A DNA stretch of 38,853 bases from Desulfovibrio oxyclinae DSM 11498 (GTDB taxonomy: Bacteria; Desulfobacterota; Desulfovibrionia; Desulfovibrionales; Desulfovibrionaceae), in NCBI RefSeq assembly GCF_000375485.1, contig NZ_AQXE01000016.1:2014-40866 (forward strand), read 5' to 3'. The notes under the pieces were generated by a model. That model was not told the DNA's origin, searched no databases, and worked only from the letters and a program-made list of their open reading frames with translations. A program made the position numbers and the translations under genes. Position 1 is the first letter of the stretch. The number at the start of each line of letters is the position of its first letter. Shown piece by piece: positions 2,392-18,503 of this stretch.

Positions 2392-4338
2392 CTAGGCTTC
2401 GCTGAGCGCTTTGTCTGTTTCAATCCGAACTATTTCCGTACAACCATACTTTTGGTCGTGTTGAAGAGCGTAGACATCTGACACTTTGTGTCTAATATCC
2501 GCCAGCAACTCCGAGTCTATCTCTTCATCAGTTGAAAGCAGTATCAGTTGCTCAATTGCAGGGTAATAGTTTTGGACAAGACTTCGACGATGATGGCTAT
2601 CAAGGCGAGCCAAGGGTGTGTCGATAATTGTTGGTATATTACCGCTTGCAACCGAAGCTAAAGCCCACTGTATTGCGGTGGCCAATATCTGCTGTTCTCC
2701 TGCGGAGAGTCGCTTCAAGTCAATACTTGATCCAGCAGGCCCGAAAAGTTCAACCGAAAAGTCGTTCGAAATATTCACATCATGAATAAGCAGATCCTTC
2801 CTAAATAGCCTTCTGATATTGTGCAAAATCAGTCGCTGGAGGCTTTTCAACCTACGTTCAAAAAAATCATCTTTTATTCTAGCCAACACCCGTGGGAACT
2901 GCTTTGCAAGTTCCTCTGATTTGCTTTCAGAGCTTCCCTTTTCAAGCTGTTTAGCCAACTGCAGTAATTTGTTGTCGATTGCGTTTATCTCACCTTCTAC
3001 ACGCTTTTTTTTCTGAACAACCTCTTCAAGCTGAGCTTCTTGAACCGAAAGCTTGGTGTTTAGTTTTCGCATTTCCGACAACGTGTCAGATAGTGCGTAC
3101 TTATCGGGCACCTTTTCAAGTGCAGAATCAATAGCTGACAACTCTTTCTGAGCATTATTTATTGAGGAGAATACGCCCAGAGCTTGAGGTCGAATAACAT
3201 CTTGAACCATTCCAATTGCCGAGAGGACCTCATCAGTCTGAGTGGCTGATATATTATGAATTGGTTTTGATGTTGGTTCCTCAGGCACTTCAAGAGCATT
3301 TAGTGCGATTTGTCGAATCCTGTCAGGCACCCCTTCTTCTGCTAATGCGCTATCGACCAGCAAGGCACGCTCTTTTGCGAATTCCTGAACAATCTGCGTC
3401 GCCTCACCCTTTCTTTCCAATACCAACTGTTCAGCTAATTCGTCTAACTCATCCGACAACACACAAAGAGGCAGATAGCTCTGAGACAACTCTTTGATTT
3501 TGGCGCTATCTTCTTCCAACTGTTTTTCAAGTTGAGTTTTACGAGCCTGCAAGGCACCGTGTGAAGATGCTAAATTGCCTCCCATTTCATAAAAAGCCGT
3601 CTCTGTATCCCCAAGCTTTTTTTTTCCCTTTTTTATTGCCTCATTCAATTCGGCGAACCTGAGATGGAGCGCCTCTCCTTCTTTATGAAATGCGGCCTTC
3701 TCATTTTTCAAAGACTGTTGGGCTTTAAGAATTGCCTGATAATCTTTTTTGTGTTTTAGGCTATCGCTCTGATACTTACTTACTGCTTCTTCTAATCCAC
3801 TTACCGCACTCAGTCCGATCAGTTTTTTTACAGCGCTGCTGATTTCCCCAGAACGCAATGACTCTCCAAGATTATTAATCTTTTCACCATCAAAGAAGAA
3901 CAATTCCATCATGCCCAACGGGATGATACTAAAAATGAACTCTTGAAAAAACTTGGGGGTCACTTCCTGATACTGTTCGTTATTCTTCAGGATTATCAAA
4001 GTCTCTTTGATCTTTCCGTCATTCCTCTGCCAGCTTCTCTTAACCGTAAAATCCTCGATGCCAGAAAGAGTGCGCTGCCGAAAATCCAACTCGATAGAAG
4101 CGGAGGATTCACCACTTCTAATAAAACCATCAATGTAATCTAAGTATTTATTCTTGTTGTTATTGAACAAGAATTGGCCATATAAGCCGACTTTCATTGC
4201 TTGAAGAAGACTTGTCTTACCCGCCCCATTGTCCCCACTGATGATTGAAACAGATCGTTGTGGGGTGTGTTCAAAACTGAGAACGTGCTCGCCTTTGAAA
4301 GATGTAATATTCGTAATTAAAATTTTATTAAGTATCAT
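2392..4338 (-). CDS. dndD: DNA sulfur modification ATPase DndD (SMC/RecN-like)
   Basis: The 648-residue protein begins with a RecF/SMC-type P-loop ATPase half: Walker A GDNGAGKTS at about residues 35-43. A long charged coiled-coil segment fills roughly residues 180-470. The second ATPase half has the signature LSAGEQQ and a Walker B-like TIIDTPLARLD segment in the last 110 residues. DndD is the ATPase of the phosphorothioation complex; by family knowledge it is thought to power or shape DNA during sulfur insertion. The start overlaps the dndC stop by 4 bp (ATGA), which indicates translational coupling. Length and motif order are typical and the frame is intact. Confidence 0.92.
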   Translation of the reverse strand: MILNKILITNITSFKGEHVLSFEHTPQRSVSIISGDNGAGKTSLLQAMKVGLYGQFLFNNNKNKYLDYIDGFIRSGESSASIELDFRQRTLSGIEDFTVKRSWQRNDGKIKETLIILKNNEQYQEVTPKFFQEFIFSIIPLGMMELFFFDGEKINNLGESLRSGEISSAVKKLIGLSAVSGLEEAVSKYQSDSLKHKKDYQAILKAQQSLKNEKAAFHKEGEALHLRFAELNEAIKKGKKKLGDTETAFYEMGGNLASSHGALQARKTQLEKQLEEDSAKIKELSQSYLPLCVLSDELDELAEQLVLERKGEATQIVQEFAKERALLVDSALAEEGVPDRIRQIALNALEVPEEPTSKPIHNISATQTDEVLSAIGMVQDVIRPQALGVFSSINNAQKELSAIDSALEKVPDKYALSDTLSEMRKLNTKLSVQEAQLEEVVQKKKRVEGEINAIDNKLLQLAKQLEKGSSESKSEELAKQFPRVLARIKDDFFERRLKSLQRLILHNIRRLFRKDLLIHDVNISNDFSVELFGPAGSSIDLKRLSAGEQQILATAIQWALASVASGNIPTIIDTPLARLDSHHRRSLVQNYYPAIEQLILLSTDEEIDSELLADIRHKVSDVYALQHDQKYGCTEIVRIETDKALSEA

Positions 4339-5744
4339 GCGAGATCCCGATAGATTTCAAACTCAGTGCGCCATTCTTTCTTGAAGGACTTTGCCACTTT
4401 ATTCTTGAGTCGAACTTTGGACCGAAGGCCTTGGTGGTATTGAGCTGTGGTTAATAGTTCCATTGCCAACTCTGCTGGGAAGCTCTCCTCTTCGCAAATC
4501 TGCTGAACAGCAACCTTGTCTTCTTGGGTGAGAAAGCCGATCTCATCAATGCCGTTGTCGATCGTTTTTCCATTCACCTCTTCATAAATAGCGTAGACGC
4601 TGCTCTCCCAATCATTTTTTTCTTCTTTCCACAAACGCTGGATTTCATGGAGCTCTCTTTCTTCGATTAGATATATGTATTCTGAATCTGGATACGGATT
4701 ATTCTCATTCAGACGCCTTTCGGTCTGCAGAAGAGATCGCAAGAAATCTTTTCTGAAATCCATTGTGTATGGGCCACGTGCAAGCTCTTTGATTCCCTCT
4801 TCTTCCAACTTGCCTCGAATGAAGAGTGACTGGCCGTTACGTTTAACATGCTCCCTAAACTGCTTTTTATTATCTGGAATCTGCGTGAAGAGTAGGGTCT
4901 CTCTGAGGTCCTGAAGCGGAGCAAGCCATTCTTCTCCGTGTTTAATTAGAGAGGACAGGGCTTTCTCTTTTTTTACCACTGTACAACACCAACAACCAAA
5001 ACGACTTTTGCCACAACTCGGAGCTTTGATGTCTAAAATGAGTGGGCACTCTCCATCGCTCGCATTTTTGTACATGTAGACGAGCTCTTTGTTGTCCGCA
5101 CCCCAGGGGGAGGGATGGTCAAGTAAGTACTCCCAGATTTCTTCTGTTTCCCAATCCTCAATCAAAGTATAGACATGGGCTGTTGGAATTTCTGGGTGGG
5201 GATTGTACATCTTCCCTGAGATTTTATGGCTTTCAATCCGTTTTTTCCTGGCAGCACTTTCGCTTTTACGAGACCCAAGCAGTAGTATTGCACCTGATGA
5301 CTCAAAAGCCTGGGAACGAATAAACTCTGACGTGGGATCAATCTTGAGCCGGTCAGTGCACCATCTAAAGTTGTTTGTAGGAGCAGGATAGCCTTTCCCT
5401 AACAGGTTAACCCAAAAGGTATCACTGACAGCTGGAAACACCTTGATCGGGTTGAAGGGAAGACTCTGCTTGGCCGCTGCCTCTAACATCTTACTGATGT
5501 TTAAGTCTATGTGGTTTATGACTTTAGGAATTTCAACCAAAGTGTCTGACGACAAAATGTATACTGGCTTGAACAGCTCATCAGCACATAGTTCTGACAA
5601 TGCGCTCCACACCAGTTGAACAAGTACGGTAGAATCCTTTCCGCCGCTATATCCAAGTATCCAGGGCCAACTATCCGCTTTATATCGCTCTTGGATTTCG
5701 GCGTAGATGTCTGCCAGAGGGCGACCTGCGTAGATATTATCCAT
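4335..5744 (-). CDS. dndC: DNA sulfurtransferase DndC (PAPS-reductase-like, Fe-S)
   Basis: The 469-residue protein belongs to the PAPS reductase/ATP pyrophosphatase family. The PP-loop SGGKDST is at residues 33-39. A cysteine cluster with C244, C251, C253 and C254 (segment PSCGKSRFGCWCC) fits the 4Fe-4S site of DndC; C129 and C233 are further cysteines. DndC activates the DNA backbone with ATP and transfers sulfur supplied by a cysteine desulfurase (family knowledge). It starts one base after the dndB stop, with AGGA as a ribosome site inside the dndB end. No dndA is present in the window, so a housekeeping IscS-type desulfurase probably supplies the sulfur (inference). Confidence 0.95.
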   Translation of the reverse strand: MDNIYAGRPLADIYAEIQERYKADSWPWILGYSGGKDSTVLVQLVWSALSELCADELFKPVYILSSDTLVEIPKVINHIDLNISKMLEAAAKQSLPFNPIKVFPAVSDTFWVNLLGKGYPAPTNNFRWCTDRLKIDPTSEFIRSQAFESSGAILLLGSRKSESAARKKRIESHKISGKMYNPHPEIPTAHVYTLIEDWETEEIWEYLLDHPSPWGADNKELVYMYKNASDGECPLILDIKAPSCGKSRFGCWCCTVVKKEKALSSLIKHGEEWLAPLQDLRETLLFTQIPDNKKQFREHVKRNGQSLFIRGKLEEEGIKELARGPYTMDFRKDFLRSLLQTERRLNENNPYPDSEYIYLIEERELHEIQRLWKEEKNDWESSVYAIYEEVNGKTIDNGIDEIGFLTQEDKVAVQQICEEESFPAELAMELLTTAQYHQGLRSKVRLKNKVAKSFKKEWRTEFEIYRDLA

Positions 5745-5745
5745 G

Positions 5746-6846
5746 TTATCCTAACTGCATTTGTTTGCGATTGAACTCTTCTTCGGCAGCATTTTCTTTA
5801 TCATTCAGCTCAACGCCTAACTGCGCTTTCAGTACGTTAGTAGTAAGGATGAAGCTGATGTTTGATTTTGTGATCTTACCATTGTGCAACGCTCGTCCTT
5901 CCCAAAGACGATTGTTCCGTTTCCAATTCGCATTTCCTATGACGGAAATGGCGTCATCTAGCCTCTTACCAGCACTAAAAGCAGAGTTTGTAACGGCCGC
6001 GGCCGCATTCAAGAAAAGATTGTGCCCGCTCAGATATTCTTGTCTCAAAGCACTTGAAGCCAATTCCCCTTTTAGGAATTGCTTCCACTCATCTAGGTTG
6101 TTGCCGAGCTTTTCCCAAAATTCGCATGCATATTGGGTGCTTTCAACAACATCATCAAGATCTTTCCCCAATAGTATTTTTGTCGCGTTGTAGATGCCGT
6201 TCAATGTGAACAGATTTACCGATCGATTGGAAATCGTCGTTTTTTCAAACTCAGTGTAATTTTTAAAGAAAGAAACGCTCACAGCAACCGACCTAACTAT
6301 CTCTGCGTAAGGATCGCGGGTGTCATAAAGTATGCTCAGAGACTGAGCTGGCTTGAGCGTGTAGCGGTTCAAGTCAGTAAAAATCTGCTGGCTCATTTTT
6401 AGCCCTGGATCATTGAAAAAAATTATCGGCAGGAGTTCATATTCGTTGCTTCGCTGCTCCTTTAAAGACTCAATGATCGCAGAAATCCTATGTTGGCCAT
6501 CATTGATAAGATACCTTGCACGATCCCTGATCAGCAGTGATCCAACATTAGGTGACCCCTCTGCCTTTTCGAAGGTCACATCGCCATCAATCGATACAGT
6601 GACAGCAGAAAAAACATAACTATCAGTGTTTGATAGAAGGTATTGTTTAATTGATTTAACACGTGTTTTGTTTAGAACTCGTTGAGCTCTCTCCACTGGA
6701 GGGATGTCATAGTTGTCTATCTCATTAAAGATTTCAGGCAAAAGGTAAAATGGACAATTGGCAAGGTAATACTCTCGTCCAGCCTGAACCCCTTTCACCG
6801 CAGCGAAACGACGTTCGTACAAGTCTCTTGGATGATTGGAAGACAC
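5746..6846 (-). CDS. dndB: DNA sulfur modification protein DndB (DGQHR domain)
   Basis: The 366-residue protein carries the family-defining DGQHR motif at residues 116-120 within LINDGQHRISAI. DndB is the first gene of the operon. In Salmonella the DndB homologue has been reported to repress transcription of the modification genes (family knowledge), so it is probably the local regulator. The start is GTG, preceded by GAAGTGAGG six bases upstream; this supports the GTG over later ATGs. A candidate promoter and a perfect 8-bp inverted repeat lie 37-93 bp upstream. The gene is visibly A+T-richer than phoB and later genes. Confidence 0.93.
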   Translation of the reverse strand: MSSNHPRDLYERRFAAVKGVQAGREYYLANCPFYLLPEIFNEIDNYDIPPVERAQRVLNKTRVKSIKQYLLSNTDSYVFSAVTVSIDGDVTFEKAEGSPNVGSLLIRDRARYLINDGQHRISAIIESLKEQRSNEYELLPIIFFNDPGLKMSQQIFTDLNRYTLKPAQSLSILYDTRDPYAEIVRSVAVSVSFFKNYTEFEKTTISNRSVNLFTLNGIYNATKILLGKDLDDVVESTQYACEFWEKLGNNLDEWKQFLKGELASSALRQEYLSGHNLFLNAAAAVTNSAFSAGKRLDDAISVIGNANWKRNNRLWEGRALHNGKITKSNISFILTTNVLKAQLGVELNDKENAAEEEFNRKQMQLG

Positions 6847-9927: not shown

Positions 9928-12090
9928 TTGTTTAAGAATATGAGTATGCGGAGCAAGATACTTGTTCCTATCTGTACTGCGGTGGTGATCGTATTCATCG
10001 CCACCATGACCATTACCGGCATGCGCATGAGCAAACTGCTCAAACGCGATGCCGAAAAGCTGGCCACGGCGGTCTCCAAGGACTACGGCAGCGAGATCGG
10101 GGCATCCGTGGAGAAGGGCATGGAGAGCGCGCGTACCATCGCGTCGTTCATGGGCGGCGCCAAAGAAGTTCGCGGGGTTTTCGGGCGGAAGAAGGCCATA
10201 GCCATGCTGCGCTCCGTGCTTGAGGAAAGCCCGCACCTCGACGGCATCTGGACCGTGTGGAAGGAAGACGGGTTCGACGGCGTTGACGGTGCATTCGGCA
10301 GCACCGAAATGCACGACGAAACCGGCCGCTTCATTCCGCGCTGGTACCGCAACGCCAAGGGCGAGATCGTCGGCGAAGCGATGAAGAACTACACGGCCGA
10401 GGGTGAAAAAGGATATTTCTACAGCAAGCCCTTCAAGACCAAGAAGCCCTACGTGGGCTCGCCCGTTACCGTAAAATGGGGCGGCGAAAAGGTCATGAAG
10501 GTCACCGCCAGTGTTCCCGTCATGGTCAAGGACGAGGTCTACGGCGTGGCCGGGGCGGACATCATCCTCAACCGGATGCAGGATATCGTCAAAGACATTT
10601 CCCTGTTCGGCTCCGGGTACGGGTTCGTCATCAGCGACGAGGGCAAACTCATCGCCCACCCCAAGAAAGACATCATCGGCACAGACGTATTGAACTATTT
10701 TGACGGACAGGACGCCGAACAGCTCGCAAAAGCCGTGGAAAACGGCACGCCGCTGGAACTGCGGTCCAAGTCCGAGGTGACCAAAAAGGAAACCTACTAC
10801 GTCTTCGTGCCCTTCGAACTCGCCGGAACCGGCGTAAAGTGGCTCTTCGGCGTCAACGTGCCCATGGACAGCGTCATGGCCGAATCGCGGGAGCTCATGC
10901 TCATCAACGCTGGCATGGGCGCCGTGGCTCTGGTGGTCATCGGCCTCATCATCTTCTTCGTTGCCGGAACCATCGTCCGCCCCCTCAAACGGATTGTCGG
11001 TGCCGCCGAGGAAGTTGCCGCAGGCAATCTGGACACCAAGGTGGACATCCATCAGAAAGACGAGATCGGCGTGCTGGCCGACGTGCTGCGCAAGATGGTC
11101 TCCAATCTGGTGGAGATGATCGACACCGCTGAACAGAAATCCGCCGAAGCGGAAGAACAGACCAAGGCTGCCCGCGTGGCCACCGAAGAAGCCGAAGAAG
11201 CGCGCCAACAGGCGGAGATCGCCAAGAAGCAGGGTGCGCTTCAGGCTGCCGAGGCCCTTGAGGGCATTGTGCGCCGCATCACCGCATCCTCCGAGGAACT
11301 CACCGGTCAGGTGCGACAGGCCAGCAGCGGCGCCGAATCCCAGAGCTCCATGGCTTCCGAAGCGGCCACCGCCATGGAACAGATGAACGCCTCCGTCCTC
11401 GAAGTCGCGCGCAACGCCTCCCTTGCCGCGGAGAGTGCCGACGGCGCGAGCGGTCAGGCCCGCAACGGCTCCGAAGTGGTCTCCACGCTGGTGCAGGCCA
11501 TCGGCGAAGTGAGCAGCCGCTCTCAGGAAATGAAGGAGCAGCTCTCCGGACTCGGCAAGAAGGCCGAAGGCATCGGCGAGATCATGAACGTCATCACCGA
11601 CATCGCCGACCAGACCAACCTGCTGGCGCTGAACGCGGCCATCGAGGCGGCCCGGGCAGGCGAGGCCGGACGCGGATTCGCCGTTGTCGCGGATGAGGTC
11701 CGCAAGCTGGCGGAAAAGACCATGAACGCCACCAAGGACGTGGAGGATTCGGTCGGCCAGATCCAGCAGGGCACGCGCGACAGCATCGAGAGCATGGACA
11801 TCGCCGCGGACGCGGTCACCCGCAGCACCTCCCTCGCGGGCGACGCGGGCAACTCCCTTGAAGAGATCGTGACCATCGTGCGCGAAACCGCCGACCAGGT
11901 TCGCAACATCGCAACGGCGTCCGAAGAGCAGTCTTCGGCAAGCGAGCAGATCAGCCGCTCCGTGGACGAGGTCAACCGCATCTCCGACCAGACCGCCGAA
12001 GCCATGCAGCACTCCAGCGACGCCATCGGCGAACTGGCGAACATGGCCACCGAACTCAATGACCTCATCACGAGGCTCAAGAACGAATAA
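9928..12090 (+). CDS. Methyl-accepting chemotaxis protein (dCache-type sensor)
   Basis: The 720-residue chemoreceptor starts at TTG, eight bases after GGGAGG; the ATG four codons later is too far from that site. A first transmembrane helix spans about residues 9-30. A periplasmic double-Cache-like sensor follows (about 40-325, with [18 protein letters not shown] and [16 protein letters not shown] segments). A second helix is at about 327-350, then a HAMP domain. The cytoplasmic signalling domain contains the highly conserved hairpin tip ([19 protein letters not shown]). It would signal through CheW/CheA. The C-terminus ends in LKNE without an aromatic CheR/CheB-binding pentapeptide. The ligand is unknown; Cache domains often bind small organic acids or amino acids. 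Confidence 0.95.
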
Positions 12091-12111
12091 CGGTCTTTGA
12101 CGACCTTTTGC

Positions 12112-12148
12112 ACGGGGGCTTGCGTCGATCGACGCAAGCCCCCGTTTT
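12112..12148 (+). terminator. Rho-independent terminator after the MCP gene
   Basis: A perfect 34-bp palindrome (arms ACGGGGGCTTGCGTC, loop GATC) runs straight into TTTT. It separates the MCP gene from the riboswitch-led gene downstream. Confidence 0.92.
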
Positions 12149-12203
12149 CTTGAATCGTGGATAGACTTTACAAATCAGGCCCATCGTTATAGAGAATTTT
12201 TTC

Positions 12204-12284
12204 GCGTCAGAAAATGCCAAACCCGCCGCGAGGCGGGGACGGAAAGCCACGGGTCTCAAGCAGACGGCCGGGTTGCCGGGACGC
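12204..12284 (+). promoter_or_regulatory. GEMM-I cyclic-dinucleotide (c-di-GMP) riboswitch
   Basis: The 81-nt leader has the parts of the GEMM-I aptamer in order. P1 is closed by GCGTC (12204-12208) and GACGC (12280-12284). The conserved CAAACC leads into a stem capped by a GCGA tetraloop (CCCGCC/GGCGGG). Then come GACGGAAAGCCACGGG, a variable stem GTCT/AGAC, and the conserved GGCCGGGTTGCC. Downstream, GGTCCG (12290), CGGACC (12299) and GGTCCG (12322) could form mutually exclusive pairings as an expression platform. The gene it leads encodes a c-di-GMP phosphodiesterase-type HD-GYP protein, which fits feedback control. Confidence 0.88.
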
Positions 12285-12351
12285 CTTTCGGTCCGACTCG
12301 GACCTCTTCATCTCCGGCACAGGTCCGTCTGGCGCCCTTCAGGGAACAGCC

Positions 12352-13362
12352 ATGAGCGGAAGCAGGGACACATCCATACAGGACGGCAGGCCATCCTTTC
12401 CAAACGGAAAGGGGCTGGTGCCCATCTCTGCGCACGTGCTTTCCCCCTCCACGGTGGGCGCTTTTTCCGTCTACCTCGTTCAGGACGACAAGCCGGTGCT
12501 CTACGCCACCAAAGGCGAAAGCTTCACGCCGCGCCACCGCCAGCGCCTTGCCGAACTTGACGTCAACCAGCTCTACATCGTCCCGTCCGAGCGCAAGGCA
12601 TACGTAAATTTCGTCAGGGACAACCTGACCACCCTGCTCGACGACGAGAGCATCCCCTGCAGCGAACGGGCGCGCTTTTTCTGCGAAGCCACCACCGCAC
12701 TGGCCCGGGACGCTTTTGACCGCTCCCTGCCCAACCCCGGCGGCGTGGTCCGCTTTCGCAGAATCCAGACGCTCATCCGCGACGGCTCCAACTTCTTCAC
12801 CGGCCCGGAAGGCGTACGAGAGATTTTCCGGCTGGTATCGGAAAACGAGGACCTGTACGCTCACGGCGTGGGGTGCATGGTGCTTTCGGCAAGCCTGCTG
12901 TCGCGATTCGCCCCGGACGACAGGGAACTGCTCACCGCCTGCTCCATGGGAGCGCTCATGCACGACGTGGGAAAGCTGGAACTGCCGGAGCACATCCTGA
13001 ACGCCGCCCCGGACGCGCTGGAGCACCACGACATGGAACAGCTGCATTCCCATCCGGCCCTCGGGGTGAGCGTCTGCTCCATTCTTCCCCTGCCGCAGGA
13101 GAGCCTGCACTGCATCCTCTTCCATCACGAGTTGGAAGACGGCTCGGGATACCCCACGCGCGCCAGCGGGGACATGATCCCTTTCTATGCCCGCATCGTC
13201 TCGCTGTGCAATTTTTATGAGGGTTTGATTCGCGAGCGGCCGTGGCGCAGGGCGCTGTCCCCGCGTGAAGCACTGTGCCGAATCCGCGATCATGGCGGGA
13301 AGTTCGACCGGACGATGGTCGAGCTGCTTGAAGGAGTGGTCACTCGCTCCGGCATGGTTTGA
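12352..13362 (+). CDS. HD-GYP domain protein, probable c-di-GMP phosphodiesterase
   Basis: The protein has 336 residues from ATG 12352, which follows AGGGA. A longer frame from 12214 would start inside the riboswitch and is rejected. An N-terminal ~100-residue region (VGAFSVYLVQDDKPVLYATKG) resembles the adaptor found ahead of some HD-GYP domains. The metal-binding HD is at about 204-205 (MHDVGKLELP), and the GYP signature HHELEDGSGYP is at about 258-268. Both motifs are complete, so hydrolysis of c-di-GMP is expected. No membrane segment is seen. It is convergent with the next MCP gene and shares a strong terminator with it. Confidence 0.9.
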   Translation: MSGSRDTSIQDGRPSFPNGKGLVPISAHVLSPSTVGAFSVYLVQDDKPVLYATKGESFTPRHRQRLAELDVNQLYIVPSERKAYVNFVRDNLTTLLDDESIPCSERARFFCEATTALARDAFDRSLPNPGGVVRFRRIQTLIRDGSNFFTGPEGVREIFRLVSENEDLYAHGVGCMVLSASLLSRFAPDDRELLTACSMGALMHDVGKLELPEHILNAAPDALEHHDMEQLHSHPALGVSVCSILPLPQESLHCILFHHELEDGSGYPTRASGDMIPFYARIVSLCNFYEGLIRERPWRRALSPREALCRIRDHGGKFDRTMVELLEGVVTRSGMV

Positions 13363-13363
13363 A

Positions 13364-13395
13364 GGCGGCGCCCCTCGGGGCGCCGCCACTTTTTT
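13364..13395 (+). terminator. Rho-independent terminator after the HD-GYP gene
   Basis: GGCGGCGCCCC and GGGGCGCCGCC form an 11-bp inverted repeat separated by 2 nt, followed by an ACTTTTTT tail on the plus strand. The T-run ends at the stop of the convergent MCP gene. Confidence 0.85.
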
Positions 13396-15386
13396 CAGAA
13401 CCGCTCGAATTCGCCTTCATCCACGGAAGGAAGCGCCGTACGCGCGGGTTTCCCCATTCCACGAGCCGAACGGCTACGCCCTTCGATTCGGAAGAAGGAC
13501 ATGGTCTGCTCAAGAGACGCCGCCAGATCGGCCAGCTGTTTTGCCGATGCGGCCACATCTTCGGCATTGGCGGCGTTGGTCTGCAACAGGGTATCCATCT
13601 GGGTGATGGCTCCGGCTATCTCCCGGGAGCCTATGCTCTGCTCTTCGCTCGACTCGGTTATCTCGCTCACGAGCTTGGCGGTCTGCTGCACTTCCGGCAC
13701 GATGTCCTGAATGATGCGCCCCGCCTTTTCCGCCACACCGAGGCTCTCCGAAGACTTGGTGGCGATCTCCGCCGCGGCCTGCCCACTGCGTTCCGCCAGT
13801 TTGCGAACCTCTCCGGCCACCACCGCAAACCCTTTGCCGTGTTCTCCGGCCCGCGCTGCCTCGATGGCCGCGTTCAGTGCCAGCAGGTTGGTCTGTCTGG
13901 CTATTTCTTCGATGATGGAAATGCGTTCGGCAATGTCCTTCATGGCCGCCACGGTTTCGGCCACCGCCTCTCCGCCTTCCAGTGCGGATTCGGCCGTCTT
14001 CTCGGCAATCTCGCGTGTCCGCCGGGCATTTTCGGTATTTGCGGCAATGCCCGCAGAGACCTCTTCCACCGATGACGACACTTCTTCCATGGTACTCGCC
14101 TGCTGCTCCACGCTGTCGGAAAGACTGGATGAAGACTCATTCAGCACCCGGCTGCCTTCGGCTACGGACTGGCCGCTCTCAAGCACGCGGGAAACGATCT
14201 CGCGCAACTTGCTGATCATGGCTGTCAGTGCGCCGGCAAGATCGCCCACTTCGTCATTGTGCGGGTAGCTGATGCTTGCGCCGAGGTCGCCTTTCGCCAG
14301 TTGCCCGGCAAAGTCCGCGCTCTCGGCCAGCGGACGGGATATCACCCTTTTGAGGCCGTAGTAAGCCCCGAGGAAGGACATGATCACGAAGACCGCCACC
14401 AAGACGCCGATGATCCAGTTCAGGTCGGCGATCAGGGCCAGCGGTCCGGAGATGTCCATGCCGATGACGATAACGCCCACCTGACGCCCCTTGTAGTCCC
14501 GCACGGGGAAGGCAGTGAGCGCCTTGTTGCCCACCAGCTTGACGCTTCGTCCGTCGGTGCCGCTCTGCACGAACTCCGAGGACACCAGATCGCGCGTGGT
14601 CTGATCGTCCTTTCCGGAGGTGAGCACGAACCTGCCGTCCAGCAGCGGGTACTTGGCAGCGTCCTGAAGCCTGGTGGTGACGGGAAGCAGGTCGGCGTTC
14701 ATGTATACGAGCATGGACGAGGATTCGTCGCTTGCCAGCGGCTTGAGGGCGTCGGAAAACCCTACCAGCACCTCGCATGATCCGAGCGTTTCCCCCTCCT
14801 CGCCCTTCACCGGGACAAGGCCGCGAATGGAAAAACCGCCGCGCCCGGGCTCGATGCCTTTCACGGGACTGCCGGAAGCATTGACGTCCAGCACGGTCTT
14901 GCGAAACGAGGAAATATCGTCAGAGATATCGACCCATTGCCCGTTGCGCTTGGCCTGCTTGCCACGCCAGAGACGCACGAGGCTTCGGCCGTTCGGAAGA
15001 TGGAAGTGCAGCCGGAACTTGGAGCCGGTCACCGACTGGTATCCTTCGAGGTTCGGTTGCATCACGCTACGGATTCGTTCGCGTGCGGCCTGCGCCTGTT
15101 GAGAGCGCGGATCATCCATATCGCCCGAGCGCGCCGTGCGGAAGGCGTCGCGAATGGCGGGATCGGCGCTGAACAGAGCCGCCATGGCCTGTGCGCCGTC
15201 CTCGGCGGACGATATGGCCTGCTCGACCTGACTCGTCTTGGAATCCACGAGCATCTCGACGAACGAGTGCTCAAGTTTACCGAAGTTGGAAGAGATGATG
15301 TACCAGCCCACGCCGACCAGAATGATCGCCAGCACCGTGAACGGGATCATCATTTTGGCCAGAACGGGAACTCTTCTGGATTGCAT
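13395..15386 (-). CDS. Methyl-accepting chemotaxis protein with C-terminal tether
   Basis: The 663-residue chemoreceptor starts with ATG after AAGGGGG. A first transmembrane helix is at about residues 12-32. A periplasmic Cache-like sensor follows (about 35-310; [22 protein letters not shown] and [18 protein letters not shown] are typical of the dCache_3-like group). A second helix is at about 318-342, then HAMP and the signalling domain with tip [19 protein letters not shown]. The last ~30 residues form a flexible basic linker ending in EFERF, which fits the aromatic-xx-aromatic pentapeptide that tethers CheR/CheB. The ligand is unknown. Confidence 0.95.
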
Positions 15387-16701: not shown

Positions 16702-16731
16702 TTGATCAATGAGGGAATAAAGGCATATGTT
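16702..16731 (+). promoter_or_regulatory. Candidate promoter of the MFS gene
   Basis: TTGATC (16702-16707) and TATGTT (16726-16731) are 18 bp apart, each matching 4 of 6 consensus bases. The start would lie just upstream of the GAGGAG ribosome site at 16742. Confidence 0.35.
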
Positions 16732-16752
16732 CGGCACCCCCGAGGAGACCCC

Positions 16753-17907
16753 ATGATTTCGGATCGCAGCAAACGAATGTACATATTTCTGCTGGTGCTG
16801 ACGCTTGGCGCGCACGCAGCGTTTCAAGGCTGGCGGACGCTTCTGAACAACTTCGCCGTGGAAGTCGGCGGGCTTGGCGGTTTCGACATGGGCATCGTCC
16901 AGTCGCTTCGGGAAGTGCCCGGGTTCCTCGCGCTGCTGGCCGTTTACGTGCTGCTGATTGTTCGCGAACACCGGCTCGCCGCGCTCTCCGTCGGGGTGCT
17001 GGGCATCGGCGTGGCCATGACCGGTTTCATGCCCTCCACTGGAGGCATCATCTTTGCAACCCTCGTCATGAGTTTCGGCTTTCATTATTACGAAACCATG
17101 AACCAGTCCCTGACGCTGCAATACTTCGGACATACCGAAGCCCCGCTGGTGCTCGGCAAACTGCGTAGCTTCGCGGCCCTGACCAACATCCTTGTGGGCG
17201 GCATCATCTTCGCCGCGGCATCCTTTACCGAATACACCACCATGTTCGTCTGCGCCGGAGCCGTGGCCGTGCTCACCGGCATCTGGGCCTTCATGCAGGA
17301 CCCGACTCATAAGGAAATAGCCCCGCAGCAAAAAAAGCTGTTTTTGCGCAAGCGCTACTGGCTCTTTTACGCGCTGACGTTCCTTTCAGGGGGACGCAGA
17401 CAGATATTCGTGGCCTTTGCCGTGTTCCTGCTGGTGGAGAAGTTCGGCTATTCCGTGCAGGAAGTGACGATCCTGTTCGTGCTCAACAACGTCATCAACT
17501 GGTACGTGAACCCCATCATCGGCCGTGCGGTGAACCGCTTCGGCGAGCGCAAGGTGCTCAGCCTCGAATACGGCGCGCTCGTGCTGGTGTTCACGGCCTA
17601 CGCGCTGACCGACAGCCCGCTGGTGGCCGGGGCCCTTTACGTGCTGGACAACATCTTCTTCAACTTCGCCATCGCGGTGCGCACCTTCTACCAAAAGATC
17701 GCCGACCCCGGCGACATCGCCTCCGGCATGGCCATGGGGTTCACCATCAACCATATCGCGGCGGTGTTCATCCCGGCCATGGGCGGTCTGGCCTGGCTGG
17801 CGGATTACAGGGCGGTCTTCGCGGCTGCCGCGGTGATGGCCGCCGTGTCCCTCGTTCTGGTCCAGAAGATAGACTCGCAAGTGGCCAAAAATGCGCACAG
17901 CGGTTGA
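16753..17907 (+). CDS. MFS transporter
   Basis: The protein has 384 residues from ATG 16753, preceded by GAGGAG six bases upstream; an upstream ATG at 16702 lies inside the candidate promoter. About twelve hydrophobic helices are seen, with a hydrophilic loop near the middle (MQDPTHKEIAPQQKKLFLRKRYW). This is the two-times-six layout of the major facilitator superfamily. RAVNRFGERKVLSLEYG resembles the loop 2-3 type MFS motif in the second half. The substrate is unknown. The next gene, cheD, follows after 68 bp without an obvious terminator. Confidence 0.85.
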   Translation: MISDRSKRMYIFLLVLTLGAHAAFQGWRTLLNNFAVEVGGLGGFDMGIVQSLREVPGFLALLAVYVLLIVREHRLAALSVGVLGIGVAMTGFMPSTGGIIFATLVMSFGFHYYETMNQSLTLQYFGHTEAPLVLGKLRSFAALTNILVGGIIFAAASFTEYTTMFVCAGAVAVLTGIWAFMQDPTHKEIAPQQKKLFLRKRYWLFYALTFLSGGRRQIFVAFAVFLLVEKFGYSVQEVTILFVLNNVINWYVNPIIGRAVNRFGERKVLSLEYGALVLVFTAYALTDSPLVAGALYVLDNIFFNFAIAVRTFYQKIADPGDIASGMAMGFTINHIAAVFIPAMGGLAWLADYRAVFAAAAVMAAVSLVLVQKIDSQVAKNAHSG

Positions 17908-17975: not shown

Positions 17976-18503
17976 GTGATGCAGAAAAAAGAAGAATTCC
18001 CCAGTGTCTTTCTCCAGACTGGCGACTGCTACCTCGCCGTTCAGCCCACCATGGTCACCACGGTGCTCGGATCCTGCGTGGCCGTGACCATGACGCATCC
18101 GGGCAAGGGGATAGGCGCCATCTGCCACGCCTTTCTGCCCGACTCGCTCGAAGGGCAGCGGCGGGGGGAACGTGATCCGCAGATATGCCGGTACGTGGAC
18201 ACCGCCATTTCCAACATGCTCCAGGGCATGAACAAGCTGCGCGTTCCCATTTCCGAGTTGCAGGTCAAGCTCTTCGGCGGCGCTTCCGGACTGGCGGTGC
18301 GGCATACCGAGCACAGCACCTACAACGTGGGACAGCGCAATGTGGATGCCGCCAAAAAAATGCTCTCCGACTGGGGCCTGCGCGTGGAAACCATGGACGT
18401 GGGCGGCAACCGGGGACGCAAGATCCACTACCTGACCCATTCGGGCGAAGTCTGGATGAAACGGCTCGCCGACCAGCCCCCGGCGCAACCCTCCGGCCGA
18501 TAG
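17976..18503 (+). CDS. cheD: Chemoreceptor glutamine deamidase CheD
   Basis: The 175-residue protein matches CheD: TVLGSCVAV with catalytic Cys34, GAICHAFLP with catalytic His51, and VKLFGGASGL. CheD deamidates glutamines in chemoreceptors and in some bacteria partners CheC (family knowledge). Two MCP genes lie within 8 kb, which are plausible targets. The first codon is GTG, directly followed by an ATG; there is no strong ribosome site, so either may be used. The aldC-like gene starts 28 bp downstream, suggesting an operon. Confidence 0.93.
   Translation: MMQKKEEFPSVFLQTGDCYLAVQPTMVTTVLGSCVAVTMTHPGKGIGAICHAFLPDSLEGQRRGERDPQICRYVDTAISNMLQGMNKLRVPISELQVKLFGGASGLAVRHTEHSTYNVGQRNVDAAKKMLSDWGLRVETMDVGGNRGRKIHYLTHSGEVWMKRLADQPPAQPSGR

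Follow-up and report, generated by a model that had tools for sequence, protein, structure and literature searches.

The gene studied here encodes an HD-GYP domain protein and lies in a 38,853-nt stretch of the Desulfovibrio oxyclinae DSM 11498 genome (the window, meaning the whole stretch of DNA that was analysed). It stands between two chemoreceptor genes, one at 9928–12090 on the plus strand and the other at 13395–15386 on the minus strand, and a CheD gene is found at 17976–18503 of the window. A terminator-like hairpin, a predicted promoter, a GEMM-I riboswitch aptamer and a presumed expression platform occupy the interval between the upstream chemoreceptor gene and the HD-GYP gene (Table 1). 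Elsewhere in the window, a minus-strand block at 2392–6846 combines DndB (PF14072, 1.7e-100) with an SMC/AAA-like ORF and looks like a dnd DNA-phosphorothioation cluster. ARAGORN also calls a tRNA-Arg (tcg) at 17786–17876 on the plus strand, within the end of an MFS transporter ORF (16702–17907, +); this call is probably false.

Table 1. Features of the HD-GYP gene and its leader, in window coordinates
Feature	Position	Strand	Evidence or remark
Hairpin resembling an intrinsic terminator, behind the upstream chemoreceptor gene	12112–12145	+	15-pair stem and T-rich tail; 1 found in 12060–12420, 0.5 expected in shuffles
Predicted sigma-70-type promoter	12167–12195	+	Conserved motif; −35 TTTACA 12167–12172, 17-nt spacer, −10 TAGAGA 12190–12195
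GEMM-I (c-di-GMP-I) aptamer including P1	12204–12284	+	Rfam, 73.2 bits (RF03167) and 65.7 bits (RF01051)
Closing helix P1, 5 bp	12204–12208 / 12280–12284	+	GCGUC / GACGC; closes an 81-nt unit
G20 equivalent, ligand contact	12216	+	G in 49/51 family sequences and A in 2; cGAMP sensors have A at this position
Pair 21–46, C12217–G12242	12217–12242	+	C at 21 in 51/51, G at 46 in 50/51; opposite of the RF03167 consensus G–C
P2 stem, with GNRA tetraloop GCGA (12228–12231)	12222–12227 / 12232–12237	+	Covariation
A47 equivalent, stacked between both guanines of the ligand	12243	+	A in 51/51; G in the GGC model
P3 stem	12245–12257 / 12261–12274	+	Covariation
C92 equivalent, ligand contact	12276	+	C in 51/51
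Presumed expression platform	12285–12351	+	Sequence and folds
Predicted c-di-GMP phosphodiesterase with HD-GYP domain (336 aa)	12352–13362	+	PF13487 6.4e-25; model pLDDT 89.1; fold matches to HD-GYP structures

Aptamer, pocket and predicted ligand

A cmscan search with Rfam 15 returned a single RNA over its cut-off in the whole window, RF03167 (c-di-GMP-I-GGC), at 12207–12281 on the plus strand (E 1.2e-15; gathering cut-off 59 bits). RF01051, the GEMM-I parent family in the same clan, matches the same stretch above its own gathering cut-off of 35 bits, so that the covariance-model score by which the earlier note on this DNA proposed to judge its GEMM-I assignment bears that assignment out. Among the first-look candidates scored elsewhere in the 3.32-Mb genome (150 of 509 and 150 of 208), no other place exceeded the RF03167 or RF01051 cut-off; one further match was noted at 15.9 bits, below the cut-off.

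The helices were examined in a structural alignment of 51 of the 86 aptamers found in the family sample (those with a model match of ≤80 nt, the window included), in which the register of two rows (L057 and L244) is slightly off at some points. P2 and P3 are both supported by covariation. P2 is the best-supported helix, with changes on both sides in 6/6 pairs; in P3, 12 pairs were counted, six of them with both-side changes, and 92.5% of cells are paired. Over all helices 92.6% of cells pair, and both-side changes occur in 13/21 pairs against a shuffle mean of 7.3, a count that none of 500 shuffles reached. Sliding the alignment out of register lowers pairing to 32–49% in every slid register. 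The innermost P1 pair forms in 24/51 family sequences, and P1 is weak in many orthologues, averaging −3.33 kcal/mol with the leaders' own flanks and −2.77 kcal/mol with swapped flanks (p 0.027, 32 leaders); the window's P1 duplex, at −8.8 kcal/mol, is the strongest of the 32. Judged from sequence and covariation, 12204–12284 is a complete GEMM-I (c-di-GMP-I) aptamer, and the description of an 81-nt leader with all parts of this aptamer stands.

Pocket numbering was taken from PMC4744006 and PMC3764141 and applied via the Rfam-model and family alignments. The Vc2 residues given there as ligand-contacting, G20, A47 and C92 (PMC4744006, PMC3764141), all have identical counterparts in the window, as do the conserved GEMM-I nucleotides C22, C44, G45, A48, A49 and G83 (PMC3764141). 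The pair next to 21–46, C22–G45, falls at 12218–12241, and G12267 in P3, placed by alignment, is the equivalent of G83, the partner of C44 (12240) in a contact described for the GEMM-I aptamer in PMC3764141.

Although RF03167 is the best-scoring model and passes its cut-off, we reject a GGC pocket for this aptamer, as position 47 is A and no family sequence (0/51) has G there. The RF03167 consensus has G at 47, so the name ‘GGC’, which we take to denote the bases at positions 20, 47 and 92, does not describe the pocket of the window or of the 51 family sequences. RF03167 is also the best-scoring model for L005, an A47 relative with G–C at 21–46. A pocket change is not to be read from a best match to the Rfam ‘GGC’ model.

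The reversed 21–46 pair was likewise considered as a novelty and set aside: it is common in the phylum, and PMC3764141 does not name position 21 as a highly conserved nucleotide. The exact C–G pattern was found in 47/395 phylum genomes and the exact G–C pattern in 29/395. Named genome contigs hold at least 116 stretches with the C–G pattern, with many Desulfobacterota-type, Campylobacterota-type and gammaproteobacterial records among the 80 listed, while G–C at 21–46 was seen by eye in five of the 86 family rows (L004–L007 and L021).

The note had pointed to position 20 as the means of telling c-di-GMP from cGAMP, and the G found at 12216 predicts c-di-GMP. That the aptamer instead belongs to GEMM-Ib and senses 3′,3′-cGAMP is very improbable, and we reject it, even though cGAMP-specific HD-GYP enzymes exist, one of which, V-cGAP3 (5z7c), turned up in the sequence matches, and A20 occurs in 2/51 family aptamers. 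Against it stands G20 itself, since the substitution A20G converted a Geobacter cGAMP sensor to a c-di-GMP sensor (PMC6456294). Hypr cGAMP synthases are reported to carry Ser at a diagnostic GGDEF site; none of the genome's 26 GGDEF matches has a Ser there (Asp in 25, with one, L290, degenerate), a count that covers GGDEF-type synthases and not DncV-type enzymes. Together, G20 and the lack of a Hypr-type Ser among these 26 matches make c-di-GMP, not cGAMP, the expected ligand. In another genome (G116), an aptamer with A20 and C–G at 21–46 stands before a ShlB/FhaC-type secretion gene (L035, 2515–2608, −) and is a candidate cGAMP sensor outside Geobacter.

Conservation of the pairing and the HD-GYP protein

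The link between aptamer and HD-GYP gene is conserved across the genus. RF01051 matches all 36 genus genomes, and 34 of the 36 carry an orthologue of the HD-GYP gene (E up to 1e-70). Of these 34 orthologues, 32 are preceded by a same-strand GEMM-I aptamer, 72–175 nt upstream of the matched stretch. Two genomes (G128 and G178) have the HD-GYP gene and no aptamer before it, and another (G587) gave no orthologue match at the 1e-70 threshold. In G104, an aptamer with A20 (L027, 1501–1575) is followed by an HD-GYP gene split over two frames; possible explanations are joint decay of the sensor and its gene, or a sequencing error at the frame break. The pairing also occurs outside the genus, in two genomes (G054 and G013) of a second one, and the closest named relatives are from Pseudodesulfovibrio and Desulfovibrio. 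The locus is a clear and conserved example of a riboswitch for a second messenger placed directly ahead of the gene for that messenger's likely hydrolase, with 36 genus genomes available for comparison.

Across the family sample, RF01051 matches were found in 56/199 genomes (86 rows, one of them below the cut-off), and each aptamer was paired with the longest ORF on its strand that started no more than 600 nt away. HD_5 was found in 16 of the ORFs behind these 86 aptamers, and others carry response-regulator, MCP, ShlB or sigma-54-activator domains. Several genomes also have GEMM-I patterns clustered in groups of two to four over a few hundred bases (L102, L105 and L107; G376, G421 and G399).

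The PF13487 match, the HD and HHExxDGxGYP motifs and the predicted fold identify the protein as a member of the HD-GYP domain class, in agreement with the gene that had been proposed to follow the aptamer. Six of the eight metal ligands of PmGH are kept, with D167 at the E185 position and N287 at the D305 position; N165 and E290 occupy the D183 and D308 positions. Nine positions (PmGH H189, H221, D222, K225, H250, H276, H277, G284 and P286) are kept in 26/26 aligned proteins, and the Y285 position is Tyr in 21 and Phe in five. Other positions vary: D305 is replaced by Asn in 24/26, Asp is absent from the D183 position in 24/26, and only 16/26 have Glu or Asp at the E185 position. Most catalytic residues are thus kept, yet Asn stands at two PmGH Asp positions, and we grade c-di-GMP phosphodiesterase activity as likely.

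These substitutions also lend some weight to the view that the protein is an inactive relative that binds c-di-GMP or a partner, in which case there would be no enzymatic feedback. Its best full-length PDB match is Bd1817, which is reported inactive (PMC4159591); most structure-match rows begin at model residue 85 or later. In PmGH, D183A abolished activity and D308A strongly lowered it (PMC4159591). By the same source, however, the D305A and E185A variants of PmGH retained some activity, and Bd1817 lacks the Tyr that 21 of the 26 proteins keep alongside the nine invariant positions. We consider inactivity improbable, and a likely phosphodiesterase the better description of the gene product.

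Leader, expression platform and direction of control

The longest ORF at the locus starts at 12214, inside the aptamer (12214–13362), and its 382-aa version (P0001) is in the protein collection; the first 46 residues of P0001 are leader RNA read as protein. A homologue that is 89% identical (P0002) begins at the Met encoded at 12352, and a Shine-Dalgarno-like AGGGAA at 12341–12346 precedes this ATG. A mechanical gene call can begin inside a riboswitch aptamer.

The hairpin at 12112–12145 is terminator-like and would separate the upstream chemoreceptor gene from the riboswitch transcript. A TTTACA element, separated by 17 nt from a −10 that contains TA, is found in 30/32 leaders (14/16 of a first set and 16/16 of a further set); the two leaders that lack it are those of the second genus. 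In the first set, the −10 ends 7–14 nt 5′ of the G14 position. A promoter score of at least 9/12 was reached by 23/85 family leaders and 1/85 control stretches, with a consensus derived from these same leaders. The window's −10 agrees with TATAAT at 3/6 positions, and a generic scanner reported no promoter in the window. Given the hairpin upstream and the dedicated promoter, transcription is expected to begin with the aptamer.

The 32 leaders compared for T runs, platform segments and Shine-Dalgarno folding comprise 30 of the 32 genus leaders and those of G054 and G013 from the other genus, with start codons picked by eye; G586 and G593 (a motif variant; a start not handled) and G104 (frameshifted gene) were left out. 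None of the 32, the window's included, has a T4 run between aptamer and start codon. We therefore reject intrinsic termination as the mode of control and regard an intrinsic terminator in these leaders as very unlikely; control at the translation level is most likely, with Rho or decay possible.

Within the platform, the earlier note had described competing segments, GGTCCG (12290–12295), CGGACC (12299–12304) and GGTCCG (12322–12327). The segments are present, and a trio of 6-mer, reverse complement and 6-mer arose in 7/5000 dinucleotide shuffles of 12282–12351, a figure that flatters the trio because it was tested after having been seen; the 6-bp hairpin alone arose in 1670/5000. Their role as a conserved switch did not survive comparison: the trio is found in 0/31 other leaders, including that of the closest orthologue among these (G577, 57% identical), and hence in 1/32, the window's own, and in this leader folding does not tie it to the ribosome site. 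The search for an anti-aptamer element was likewise unproductive. The possible pairing of CCGTCTG (12325–12331) with CAGACGG (12261–12267) ranks 49 of 200 shuffles, no better than chance, and anti-aptamer pairing over 16 leaders is scattered (z −3.85 to +1.60). The G185 leader is striking in that its aptamer 3′ half pairs with the stretch before the start at −27.6 kcal/mol, matched by 1/200 shuffles. Overall folding of the window leader has a z of −0.36, with 64/200 shuffles as good.

The mechanism that we propose runs as follows. Transcription from the gene's own promoter would make the aptamer the first part of the mRNA, and c-di-GMP binding in the G20/A47/C92 pocket would lock P1, P2 and P3. 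The locked aptamer would withhold its own 3′ half from other pairings, which would change access to the downstream Shine-Dalgarno site. We put at roughly 0.85 the probability that the mRNA 5′ end acts as a c-di-GMP-I riboswitch, sensing c-di-GMP and setting the level of the HD-GYP protein.

The sign of this control separates a homeostatic loop from a self-reinforcing one. In the modelled folds of the 32 leaders, which are related and so not independent cases, and with a fold model that ignores co-transcriptional folding, forming the aptamer changes the cost of opening the Shine-Dalgarno site by a mean of +1.34 kcal/mol, against +0.39 kcal/mol for shuffled platforms (Wilcoxon p 0.039). The cost rises by more than 0.5 kcal/mol in 17/32 leaders and falls by more than 0.5 in three, and 20/32 lie above their own shuffled mean. 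We accordingly lean only slightly towards c-di-GMP turning the gene off rather than on. Under such repression of translation, rising c-di-GMP would lower its own destroyer, a positive feedback to which we give somewhat under an even chance. A parallel exists in E. coli, where inhibition of PdeL expression by c-di-GMP is part of a double positive feedback (PMC12564702). The window leader itself gives it no help, with a Shine-Dalgarno access of 3.1 versus 3.2 kcal/mol bound versus free, i.e. no difference, and −0.2 in the 32-leader test; a further caution is that 12 of the 32 leaders are not above their own shuffles.

The alternative to the earlier note's direct feedback acting in the positive sense is plain negative feedback, in which c-di-GMP binding raises HD-GYP expression. 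This is the natural logic for an enzyme that removes its own ligand, and it finds a counterpart in Vc1, a GEMM-I element with lower output at reduced c-di-GMP (PMC4744006); the fold tendency points the opposite way, however, and no conserved competing element was found in the leaders. We hold this reading to be a serious contender that nevertheless stands appreciably below even odds. Carried furthest, the repressive reading would make the riboswitch an OFF switch throughout the genus, acting on the enzyme that hydrolyses its ligand. Sulfate reducers would then possess a bistable c-di-GMP circuit whose positive feedback is encoded in RNA, instead of a homeostatic one; we regard this as a rather unlikely, though tentatively arguable, outcome.

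Comparison with known systems

The window aptamer shares with Vc2 (c-di-GMP-I, RF01051) its fold, GNRA tetraloop, G20/A47/C92 pocket and predicted place at the mRNA 5′ end. From c-di-GMP-I-GGC (RF03167), its best-scoring model, it differs by A instead of G at position 47 and by C–G where the consensus has G–C at 21–46. The Geobacter cGAMP aptamers (GEMM-Ib) are alike overall, but have A20 where the window has G20. Compared with PmGH (4mcw), DvhD (9rbz), PA4781 (4r8z) and Bd1817 (3tm8), the window protein has Asn at the D305 position, and most of its relatives have Asn, Gly or Ser at D183; Bd1817 is the only HD-GYP structure among those shown that aligns along the N-terminal part as well.

In Oleidesulfovibrio alaskensis, a single c-di-GMP-I riboswitch is described before a norR-type regulator gene (PMC11124144). 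A literature search for GEMM riboswitches with HD-GYP and Desulfovibrio found no description of the pairing in this group within the text that was accessible. Reviews describe GEMM RNAs upstream of diguanylate cyclase and phosphodiesterase genes (PMC12564702, PMC3971182). As GEMM RNAs before c-di-GMP-turnover genes are already in print, what is new is this well-conserved pairing of aptamer and HD-GYP gene, a further example of a type of switch already known.
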